NCBI GenBank assembly: GCA_937864295.1
Contig: CALMJA010000091.1
Location: forward strand, 1 to 32,460
Direction: 5' to 3'
DNA: 32,460 nt
Origin: an uncultured Candidatus Altimarinota bacterium
Lineage (GTDB): Bacteria; Patescibacteriota; Gracilibacteria; BD1-5; UBA6164
Below are positions 5,792 through 9,063 of this stretch, in pieces. The first letter of the stretch is position 1. Every line of letters starts with the position of its first letter. Both the position numbers and the translations under genes were made by a program. Under the pieces are notes generated by a model. It did no database searches and was not told the DNA's origin. It worked only from the letters and a program-made list of their open reading frames with translations.

Positions 5792-6145
5792 TTAACCTAA
5801 ATTATCAATAACTAGTCTTATTATAAACCAAGCTAAACTAGCAATTGCAAATCAAAAAATAGCCATAATGATAGTATCTTTTCATTTAGTTTTATCTTGT
5901 TCAAGAGATCAAAATAAAATTTTAAATGCTCAAAGTATTATAAAAATAACAGCAATTGTTCAAGCTATTCACATTCAAAAATTTATAGCTCATTTTATAA
6001 CATTTGGAATATCTTTTGTATGAATATCTCAATTTCTTAATTGTTCTGTAGTTAAAGAATCTCATAATAATCAAGCATCATTAGCAGCATATGTCATTTG
6101 TAATGATGTTAATACTCACAATATGTAAAAAAAATATTTTTTCAT
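5792..6145 (-). CDS. VirB2-like type IV secretion system pilin
   Basis: The 117-residue product starts with a signal peptide (MKKYFFYILGVLTSLQMTYA) and then has two hydrophobic helices, GTIAVIFIILGAFKILFGS and DTIIMAIFGFAIASLAWFII, separated by a short polar LEQDKTKGK loop. This is the layout of VirB2/TrbC pilins and of the Patescibacteria T4SS pilin family. The preceding genes encode TraC-like and PrgI-like proteins, both T4SS components, which supports the call. The role could be a conjugative-type pilus or a contact structure; the window has no VirB4 ATPase or relaxase. Confidence 0.78.
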
Positions 6146-6148
6146 AAT

Positions 6149-6859
6149 TTAGTTTGTTATGTTGTAATTTTCAATATTTGATCAAATACTTGCTAAACTA
6201 TCTAATCTTGGATTATAATAATCAGTTAAAAAATTAACTAGTTCTTGTTTTTCCATCATTTCAGCTCTAATTCAGATATTTTCTAATCAAGTTTTTACTC
6301 AATTAAATCTTCAGATAAGTCATTTTTTTAATTTTGTGAAATTTCTAAGCTGACTTTTTAATGATATTAAATCAGAAGATTGATTTATTCATTTCCAAAA
6401 CGTAGTAAACACTCAAAGTAATGAATCATCTTTTACACTTTTATTTCAATCATTATCAAAAGGAATAATTATATAAAATTCTTTTTTCATTATTTGGGCA
6501 ACTTCAATTAGTTTTCTTAAATATTCTATATATTCATAAGTTTGATTTTGAAGTAATGAATTAGTTTGTTTCATGGCTTTATCATTCAAATTTCATAAAT
6601 ATGTTTCTATATCTAGTTTTTTTGATCTTACTAAAACTTGAATAGGGAAATCTAGAGAATTTAAAAATCTTTGAAAACTTATTATTATTGAATCTTGTTC
6701 ATCAATATTTTTTAGCAAAAAATTTATAGTAGAACATTTTACAACTACTCTAGAACTACCATCTTTCATAATAATAATATTTTCTTTTATACTTGAAAAA
6801 GGTAAGTATCTTTGTGTTGAACTATCAGGATGTTCTTTTTTATTTGTTTTTATAGGCAC
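6149..6859 (-). CDS. TraC/VirB4 N-terminal-like protein
   Basis: The 236-residue product begins with a Pro/Thr/Lys-rich tail, then RYLPFSSIKENIIIMKDGSS and a region ending in PIQVLVRSKKLDIETYL. This resembles the N-terminal domain of TraC/VirB4 ATPases, which in Patescibacteria is often encoded as a separate TraC-like protein next to PrgI. No Walker A motif is present, so it should not be an ATPase by itself; the C-terminal half is helical and charged. It starts 17 bases after the prgI-like gene and ends 3 bases before the pilin gene. Confidence 0.75.
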
Positions 6860-6876
6860 TTTTACTTTTTTAAAAA

Positions 6877-7290
6877 TTAAATCTTATTTAATTTATCTTC
6901 CATTTCCTTCATTTTATTTATTTTATCTTGAAAATCTATTTTATTGTCTATTTTATTTTCAATATTACTTATAAATCATATATCCATAAGGGAGTAGCTA
7001 TCGACTCATTTAACCCATTTTCTATTATCAATATTTACTTTATATCTGATAAATGATAATAAAAATTCGATAAAAGTCATTTCTGAATACTTAAATATCG
7101 CTATAACTACTCATATAACAGCTATTGTTATAGCTGGAATTGCAGCTATTTCTACTCATATTGGAGCAAGTGATTTAAAAATAGAATATCATATTCAAAA
7201 TCATATCATCACTATACTTAGCTGTCTTAAACTAAGTCATAGCAATATAGGATCTTCATTTTCAATTTGAACAGGAATCTTGTATTGCAT
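6877..7290 (-). CDS. PrgI family T4SS membrane protein
   Basis: The 137-residue protein opens with YKIPVQIENEDPILLGLSLR followed at once by two transmembrane helices (about residues 23-42 and 46-65) and a short cytosolic tail. The N-terminal V-P-x-D/E-P pattern with paired helices is typical of PrgI/VirB3-like proteins of Gram-positive and Patescibacteria T4SS clusters. The C-terminus is a charged coiled-coil-like region (IENKIDNKIDFQDKINKMKE). It is the first T4SS gene after ybeY, 50 bases downstream of it. Confidence 0.85.
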
Positions 7291-7340: not shown

Positions 7341-7781
7341 TTATTTTCAAAATACTTCTACCCATATTTTGTCTTCTAAAGCTTGCATAATTTCATAATC
7401 ATTGTCTAACTCGTGATCATATCATAAAATATGTAAAATAGAATGAATTATTAATTTATAAAACTCTTTTTCATTTCATAATCAATACTCAATTGCCTGA
7501 GATAATATTTTGTTTTCAGATAATATAATTTCTCAAGCAATATCATTATCATTTAAATCATTAAAATTATCAAAATAATGAAAACTCAATACATCAGTTG
7601 TTTTATCTATATTTCTATAAGTTTTGTTCAAATTTTGTATACTATCATCATCTAAAAACACTATATTTAGTGTTCATTTTTGAGGTATATTTACTATATT
7701 TCAAACTATATTAAATATAGTGTCAATTACTTTTTCATTTACATCAAAACTTGGCTTTTCTAAGATATTATATTTAAACAT
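7341..7781 (-). CDS. ybeY: Endoribonuclease YbeY
   Basis: The 146-residue product has the YbeY signature: NKTYRNIDKTTDVLSF at about residues 52-67, GEIILSENK near 83-91, and the metal-binding HSILHILGYDHE with H113, H117 and H123. YbeY matures 16S rRNA 3' ends and takes part in ribosome quality control. It heads the minus-strand run; 82 bases upstream, on the other strand, begins the structured RNA, so its promoter lies in the shared AT-rich gap. The protein looks full-length. Confidence 0.95.
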
Positions 7782-7828
7782 TTTTATTATAAATTTATAT
7801 AAAATAATTCAATTTTATTATATTTATT

Positions 7829-7856
7829 TTGCATGCTTTTACAAAATTATTATAAT
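7829..7856 (+). promoter_or_regulatory. Sigma-70 type promoter of the structured RNA
   Basis: TTGCAT (7829-7834) and a perfect TATAAT (7851-7856) are separated by 16 bases. Transcription would start near 7863, just before the folded segment. This is one of the best promoter matches in the window. Confidence 0.65.
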
Positions 7857-7863
7857 ATAAATG

Positions 7864-8088
7864 TCTATTTTATAGGTGGCAGGTCAAACTAATTTTCCTT
7901 ACAAATATTAGTAATATGATAATTCTTAGAAGTTTTTTCTATGAGGGTTAATTCTTTCAGAAAGAAAAACGGAATATCATAAAAATTCCTCACTAAGGAA
8001 TACAAAAATTTTGACTGACCATAAATATGGATAAAAATACATGGTAAAGATTATAATATGATTGTAATTTTTACCTTGTATTTTTTTT
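7864..8088 (+). ncRNA. Structured non-coding RNA, candidate (6S-like or leader RNA)
   Basis: This 357-base gap holds no convincing ORF but has strong secondary structure between a good promoter and a strong terminator. The segment at 7875-8020 closes on itself: GGT-CAG-TCAAA at 7875-7887 can pair with TTTTGACTGACC at 8009-8020, with two small bulges. Inside are a TATGATA/TATCATA helix (7915-7921 with 7975-7981), a TTCTTTCAGAAAGAA hairpin and an ATTCCT/AGGAAT hairpin (about 7985-8001). It lacks the RNase P, SRP and tmRNA signatures. Plausible identities are 6S RNA or a regulatory leader of the ferredoxin gene. Structures were found by eye. Confidence 0.55.
8034..8088 (+). terminator. Strong intrinsic terminator ending the structured RNA
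   Basis: AAAATACA then GGTAAA (8034-8047) pair with TTTACC then TGTATTTT (about 8070-8084), giving 14 pairs with a single T-T mismatch, followed by a T-run. The loop contains an ATTATAAT self-complement. It lies 50 bases before the ferredoxin ATG, so it either ends an independent RNA or controls read-through. Confidence 0.8.
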
Positions 8089-8138
8089 AATAAAATATAT
8101 TATACATAAACTTAAATTATATTTTAAAATTAAATTTT

Positions 8139-8336
8139 ATGTCAGAAGTTAAAGTGCCTTATGTAAATGAAACTTGTATTGGTTGTTGAGCTTGTGTTGC
8201 AATTTGTTCAGATGTTTTTGATTTAGATGATGAATGAAAAGCTTTTTCTAAAGCTTGAATGGATACTTCTAATGCAGTTGGAATTGACGATGCAATTATG
8301 GCTTGCCCTGTTAATGCTATACATTATAAAGATTAA
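8139..8336 (+). CDS. Ferredoxin, single [4Fe-4S] cluster
   Basis: The 65-residue protein has CIGCGACVAICSDVF (C13, C16, C19, with C23 as in disulphide-bearing ferredoxins) and the distal ligand C56 in ACPVNAI. This is the pattern of monocluster [4Fe-4S] ferredoxins of the Thermotoga type. It carries electrons at low potential between unknown partners; QueH at 18365-19612 is an Fe-S enzyme needing an electron source, but a link is only a guess. One ligand-flanking glycine (CIGCG) is encoded by TGA. The gene follows the RNA terminator by 50 bases. Confidence 0.93.
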
Positions 8337-8424: not shown

Positions 8425-9063
8425 ATGAAATTACAAAAATTAAAATCAGCATTTACACTGATTGAATTACTAGTTGTTATTACTATTATTGGTATACTTG
8501 CTACATGAGCTGTTAACGTATATACATCTCAAATACAAAAAGCTAGAGATTCAACTAGACTTACTGATGTTAATGCTCTTAGAACTTGATTAGAACAAAC
8601 ATATCAAGATAAATGAGCATATCCTAATGCATGATTAGCTACTTCATCTTTACCTTCATTTGCAACAGTAACTTGATATGTTCCTAAATTACCAAATGAT
8701 CCAAAAACATGACAAAAAGCGGCTACTGTAAATTTTGATTATACTTATGCTGTTGCTGCAGATGCTAATGCTATAGTATGACAAATTTTTGAAGTTTCTT
8801 CAACATTTGAAAATGGATGAAATATTACTGAAAAAGCAGCAAAAGATGGTTGAACTGACAATCTTAGATTTGAATTAGGTATTAGTTTAGCTACTGTAAC
8901 TACTCCTATAAACATAGCAGTTGCATCTGTTCCAGCAACTTGGATAAATACTTGAGTTCCAGTTGCAGCATCATGTCTTGCTATTTCTTGAACTGCAGCA
9001 GCTACTTGTCCAACTGCAGAATCTACTACTACTAATGGTAACTGAATATTAGTTATAAGATAA
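8425..9063 (+). CDS. Type IV pilin-like / pseudopilin protein
   Basis: The 212-residue product has a short basic leader (MKLQKLKSA) and the class III hydrophobic N-terminus FTLIELLVVITIIGILATGA, including the conserved Glu at +5. Cleavage would follow Ala9, whereas Gly is usual at -1. The next helix contains QIQKARDSTRLTDVNALRTG, typical of GspG/PilE-like pilins, and the C-terminal domain is Ala/Thr-rich with two cysteines near the end. No PilB, PilC or PilD gene is in the window. It is first in a plus-strand block of surface genes and has its own terminator. Confidence 0.9.

Follow-up and report, generated by a model that had tools for sequence, protein, structure and literature searches.

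6S RNA plugs RNA polymerase by imitating an open promoter and acts as a global brake on transcription. Its topology is that of a rod of 150-200 nt with a terminal closing stem, a central bubble and an imperfect internal arm (PMC8876501). In the E. coli-type 6S RNA, the product RNA opens helix P2, whose 3' strand then goes into a 3' bubble hairpin. In B. subtilis 6S-1 RNA, this hairpin is smaller and is already present in the free RNA, and product-RNA synthesis starts at nucleotide 40 (PMC8876501). Ms1, from Actinobacteria, is a 6S-like structured RNA that was missed by 6S sequence models and traced by synteny (PMC9130861). In the literature searched, no paper mentioned 6S RNA in connection with Gracilibacteria or the Candidate Phyla Radiation (CPR), and the one match for Patescibacteria used the term "6S RNA" for SRP RNA.

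The RNA gene described here adjoins the ferredoxin gene in a code-25 Gracilibacteria genome. The window, that is the whole stretch of DNA analysed, is 32,460 nucleotides long, and the RNA proper, which is about 170 nt long, non-coding and folded, occupies positions 7863-8032 of its plus strand (covariance-model match G000:C91:7863-8032). The interval between ybeY and the ferredoxin gene holds no credible gene, and its folding energy was -59.5 kcal/mol compared with -34.8 +/- 4.0 kcal/mol for shuffled sequences (z -6.3; 0 of 200 shuffles). The features of the locus are listed below.

7341..7781, minus strand: ybeY, usual divergent upstream neighbour, outside the RNA (gene list of the window)
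7828..7856, plus strand: sigma-70-type promoter, TTTGCA-17-TATAAT, -10 box conserved in 40 of 45 relatives
7863..8032, plus strand: the RNA itself, 6S-like, about 170 nt (covariance-model match; covariation in 45 relatives)
7863..7873, plus strand: outer closing helix P0, 5' strand (helix 1; partner 8021-8032; 95% of cells paired, 8 of 13 pairs compensatory)
7882..7888, plus strand: inner closing helix P1, 5' strand GGUCAAA (helix 3; partner 8010-8015; 6 of 6 pairs compensatory)
7893..7902, plus strand: 5' central-bubble strand UUUUCCUUAC, near-invariant in 45 relatives
7895..7900, plus strand: P2 5' strand (helix 4; 100% paired; covaries)
7915..7921, plus strand: internal-arm helix P3, 5' strand (helix 5; partner 7975-7981; 7 of 7 pairs compensatory)
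7932..7970, plus strand: apical part, made of P4 (7932-7937 / 7965-7970) and the GAGGG/CUUUC helix (7943-7947 / 7954-7958) (helices 6 and 7; length varies between species)
7975..7981, plus strand: P3 3' strand (covariation alignment)
7985..8001, plus strand: 3' central-bubble hairpin (7985-7990 / 7996-8001), which takes up the P2 3' strand, so that P2 cannot form alongside it
7995..8003, plus strand: P2 3' strand AAGGAA and conserved UAC (covariation alignment)
8010..8020, plus strand: P1 3' strand and CUGACC side of the conserved P0-P1 internal loop (covariation alignment)
8021..8032, plus strand: outer closing helix P0, 3' strand (covariation alignment)
8035..8088, plus strand: intrinsic terminator hairpin and T run (folding; similar hairpin in 33 of 45 relatives)
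8139..8336, plus strand: ferredoxin gene, usual downstream neighbour (41 of 45 relatives), outside the RNA

A preliminary description of this DNA had claimed a good promoter, a closing helix joining 7875-7887 to 8009-8020 and a very strong terminator, and all three were found. The promoter is a good sigma-70-type one, with TTTGCA (7828-7833) and TATAAT (7851-7856) separated by a 17-base spacer, and a -10 box with at least five of six matches lies 6-9 bases 5' of the start of the RNA in 40 of the 45 relatives, compared with 7% at random places. The closing helix is present and continues outward as far as the ends of the RNA: P0 (7863-7873 / 8021-8032) closes the molecule exactly at the expected transcription start, and its 13 pairs include the GG/CC pairs at 7875-7876 / 8019-8020. 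The terminator, at about 8035-8088, is a strong, A+T-rich hairpin of 23 pairs followed by a T8 run. It was not flagged by a simple terminator scan because its stem is A+T-rich. Its stem has no conserved strand in common with the RNA and varies freely among relatives.

The alignment of 45 sequences contains 45 pairs, with 93.4% of cells paired and compensatory changes in 32 of the pairs. Its covariation score was 0.485, compared with 0.181 when shuffled and at most 0.12 when slid, and none of 500 shuffles reached any observed value. This alignment was fitted to the model and consequently leans towards structure, and P3 was added by hand before model building; an unfitted MAFFT alignment analysed with RNAalifold gave most of the same helices, with compensatory changes in 21 of 40 pairs. 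Covariation and conservation among relatives were thus strongly present, the opposite of the outcome named in the preliminary description as speaking against an RNA at this place. Read from 5' to 3', the RNA consists of P0, the internal loop GGYGGC / CUGACC, P1, the 5' bubble strand, P3, P4 with its variable apex, the 3' bubble with AAUUCC..., then AAGGAAUACA and the returning strands of P1 and P0.

The apex seems free to vary. Lineage-specific A+T-rich hairpins of 10-57 bases are inserted between GAGGGUU and UUCUUUC in several relatives (L005:1356-1582, L058:1501-1699, L057, L060 and L061), and the apex is missing in L063 and L083. A small apical reading frame (ATGAGGGTTAATTCT...) was considered and rejected on account of these two losses and of the insertions in L005, L057 and L058, the helices being kept.

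The locus encodes an independent structured RNA that is conserved in this Gracilibacteria order. BLAST matches covered the full length of the RNA across the genus and part of it in the family. A first covariance model, built from 17 relatives, found a single strong copy in 44 of the 48 family genomes and in one genome of the sister family, and a second model (R2) added another sister-family genome, which brings the number of homologues to 46. There is usually one copy per genome; the extra 24.6-bit match in G060 looks spurious. The search of 380 genomes across the phylum with R2 and strict filters was negative outside the order. When GTDB genomes were scanned for an exact pattern, 26 places came up, 25 of which were confirmed by the model. 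The titles of these 25 are mostly Candidatus Gracilibacteria; the others are "bacterium", a Patescibacteria bin and one "Candidatus Altimarinus" bin. The sole foreign place, in a "Chitinophagaceae" assembly (L113), was unsupported by the model. Weak model matches in the sister family (L092-L096) fall within coding sequence or next to it, have neither promoter, terminator nor closing stem, and were discarded. The two sister-family copies (L090 and L091) seemingly have two separate internal stems, one of them a long 3' bubble hairpin, unlike the main family.

We then examined the central bubble, in which two mutually exclusive pairings share one strand. P2 (UUCCUU / AAGGAA) covaries, being CCCUU/AAGGG in L059, CUCUU/AAGAG in L065 and L072, and UUUCUU/AAGAAA in one genus. 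The P2 3' strand also pairs locally with the upstream AUUCC, and this partner changes in step with it, from AUUCC/GGAAU to GUUUC/GAAAU or AUCCC/GGGAU. In the free RNA, P2 and the 3' hairpin compete, with mean probabilities of 0.29 and 0.43, respectively. When the 13 bases that the predicted product RNA would cover were kept single-stranded, the mean probability of the 3' hairpin was 0.62, compared with 0.32 when the upstream 18 bases were shuffled, and it exceeded the shuffled control in 41 of the 45 relatives.

The topology of the E. coli-type 6S RNA (SsrS, RF00013) is shared by the present RNA, which is a rod of 150-200 nt with a closing stem, a central bubble and an imperfect internal arm, is present in single copy with its own promoter and terminator, and has a P2 3' strand that can form a 3' bubble hairpin instead of P2. 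It differs from RF00013 6S RNAs by its A+T-rich outer helix, by the GGYGGC / CUGACC loop in the closing stem, by AAUACA after P2 and by its gene neighbours, and it lacks the CCCACCU of the 3' bubble that is conserved in Rfam-type 6S RNAs. The likeness to B. subtilis 6S-1 RNA lies in the small 3' bubble hairpin populated in the free RNA and in the product start at nucleotide 40, which corresponds to the C40 that we infer below (PMC8876501); the two RNAs have no sequence match.

The Rfam covariance search proposed in the preliminary description gave no relevant match at the locus at gathering or permissive thresholds. RF00013 at its gathering score had no match in the window or in the homologous loci and, with the filters relaxed, still had none in the 24 genomes searched from the order, although a diverged second 6S RNA could be missed by such a search. 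Among 380 Patescibacteria genomes, 30 had an Rfam 6S RNA, and 15 of these 30 are from other families of the same class. These RNAs (L126-L133 and L136-L154) have the same layout as the present one, whereas they are recognisable by RF00013, carry a CCCACCU...AGG hairpin and lie mostly beside an M50 peptidase gene. Gene neighbours gave no link between the present RNA and the Rfam-type group. The M50 (site-2) peptidase gene adjoins most of the Rfam-type 6S genes L126-L132, with L133 as an exception, and is a possible synteny marker for 6S RNA in the phylum.

The results of the reverse search, in which R2 was run unfiltered on 25 kb around eight Rfam-type 6S genes, showed that its best match lay end to end on the 6S gene of L133. 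This match scored 20.7 bits (E 0.005), compared with 12.9 bits for the next one, and is the best match of R2 outside the family; the L133 gene is itself below the Rfam gathering score (41.5 versus 46.4 bits). On 20 more 6S loci, the four best R2 matches fell on 6S genes, in the correct orientation and agreeing to within 5 nt at both ends, at scores of 9-12 bits that are at background level and could reflect the general rod shape alone. The control, run on RNase P and tmRNA loci (37 kb), reached no more than 12.4 bits, and most matches were short fragments. The 5' bubbles of L138 (UUUUCCUACACU), L133 and L153 resemble the UUUUCCUUACACU of the present RNA at the matching position. A position-weight test of the 5' bubble motif on 25 Patescibacteria 6S RNAs was not significant overall, with p < 0.05 in only two of them (L138 and L153), both at the matching position.

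Taken with the covariation-supported rod (closing stem, bubble and arm), the exchange between P2 and the 3' hairpin and the standalone gene that is usually present in one copy, these results make it likely that the locus encodes the order's own 6S RNA, or something functionally close to it, in a form too diverged for the Rfam 6S model to detect. A 6S-like function is proposed because of the anatomy, the exclusive distribution and the one significant cross-match, that with L133, and on the same grounds the divergent 6S RNA suggested in the preliminary description is the best supported reading. We call it a divergent 6S-like RNA, and not a member of the Rfam 6S family, because the Rfam search was made and returned no match.

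We infer binding to RNA polymerase, a product RNA, its start site and its release. Transcription from the RNA's own promoter would begin with the outermost pair of the closing stem and stop at the terminator, and the RNA folds into a rod with a closing stem (P0 and P1), a central bubble and an internal arm (P3 and P4). Once nucleotides are available again, the 5' bubble strand would serve the polymerase as a template from C7902 onward (nucleotide 40, the C of UUAC), the putative start site of a product RNA 5'-GUAAGGAAAA..., and this synthesis would open P2. The freed P2 3' strand (AAGGAAU) would then pair with the AUUCC just upstream, and formation of the 3' bubble hairpin would eject the RNA from the polymerase. 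A start at C40 would give a purine, which is G in most relatives and A in L059; in L085 the strand is UUCAC and the reading of the start site is uncertain.

A new standalone regulatory or housekeeping RNA class of Gracilibacteria, unrelated to 6S RNA, comes second to the 6S reading; the preliminary description had put forward such a class for code-25 bacteria. Its conserved loops (GGYGGC / CUGACC and UUAC / AAUACA) would bind another protein, and the alternation of P2 and the hairpin would be a different switch, which we consider improbable. The absence of an Rfam match, the long near-invariant loop sequences, the weak sequence likeness to Rfam-type 6S RNAs and the unlike gene neighbours all agree with a new class, whereas the RNA agrees with 6S RNA in its topology, its size, its single copy and the alternation of P2 with the 3' hairpin, it replaces Rfam-detectable 6S RNA in this order, and its model finds a 6S gene of the same class (L133). 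There is a small chance that the RNA is a separate Gracilibacteria-specific class with a two-state switch, not descended from 6S RNA, which took the place of 6S RNA or another role.

A cis-acting leader of the ferredoxin gene (riboswitch or attenuator), with the terminator as expression platform, is very unlikely. Ferredoxin is found downstream on the same strand in 41 of the 45 relatives, as such a leader would have it, and in L009 and L047 (G007) the ferredoxin start codon follows the RNA after about 30 bases, with no terminator in between. In these two, the RNA may be released by processing of a longer transcript. However, the RNA is not always upstream of, and co-oriented with, one regulated gene: in L066 it lies between dnaN and a convergent mechanosensitive-channel gene, the sole downstream gene, which is behind the terminator; in L083 ybeY is kept and the downstream gene is another one; in L084 the RNA is 5' of what we read from the sequence as an ATP-cone protein gene; and in L088 it is 5' of pnp. 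No ferredoxin was seen at L091, in the sister family. The L066 and sister-family copies already contradict the leader, and the freely varying terminator stem also speaks against it. Because copies lie beside other genes and the distance to the -10 box is kept, the RNA is not a ferredoxin leader. The preliminary description was therefore right in regarding it as an independent structured RNA, which has its own promoter and terminator, is conserved as a unit and is found away from ferredoxin.

Within the 6S-like reading, an RNA resembling Ms1, which binds the RNA polymerase core and not the holoenzyme, has a slightly smaller chance still. Like the present RNA, Ms1 has a 6S-like structure and escapes 6S models (PMC9130861). 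However, Ms1 has been described in Actinobacteria, and the class to which the present RNA belongs contains Rfam-type 6S RNAs; binding to the core and to the holoenzyme are inseparable on present evidence.

That the locus encodes SRP RNA, RNase P RNA or tmRNA in disguise is refuted in practice. Neither RF00169 nor RF01854 matched in any of 24 genomes of the order, which leaves the slot for an SRP RNA open, but the Ffh M domain and the SRP GTPase are likewise absent and the apical loop of the RNA is variable, with no GGAA tetraloop. RNase P RNA and tmRNA are encoded elsewhere; the preliminary description had noted that signatures of all three RNAs are missing here. RNase P RNA (RF00010) lies at G000:C1:3335-3738 and was found away from the locus in 23 of 24 genomes, tmRNA exceeded the cut-off in 19 of 24, and neither RF00023 nor ARAGORN found a tmRNA at the locus. 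No full-length tmRNA was found in G000, the window's own draft genome, though close relatives have one, which is probably an assembly gap. The Ffh M domain and the SRP GTPase (including FtsY) had no match over the cut-off in 13 genomes of the order, while all 14 controls were positive. The whole SRP system had no match over the cut-off in the tested genomes of the order (G000-G008 and G024-G032), which agrees with a published comment that many CPR bacteria lack SRP subunits (PMC8080830).

If the 6S reading is confirmed, host-dependent bacteria with a reassigned stop codon, which have lost SRP, would still keep the 6S brake, in a form missed by current covariance models. A gap in the known distribution of 6S RNA would be filled, and the 46-homologue model could serve to find more. 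The near-invariant bubble strands lead to a precise prediction, a product RNA starting with GUAAGGAAAA.

Other parts of the window were noted in passing. Positions 1-608 contain the 3' end of the 23S rRNA gene, 5S rRNA, tRNA-Arg(tct) and tRNA-Val(tac). Just after ferredoxin (8425-9063) is a gene for a protein that resembles type IV pilins and has a FTLIELLVVITIIGIL signal; L010 has it in the same position. The minus strand upstream (5792-7290) carries small membrane-protein genes and a conserved gene (SSTQRYLPFSSIKENIIIMKD) whose sequences recall parts of type IV secretion systems.
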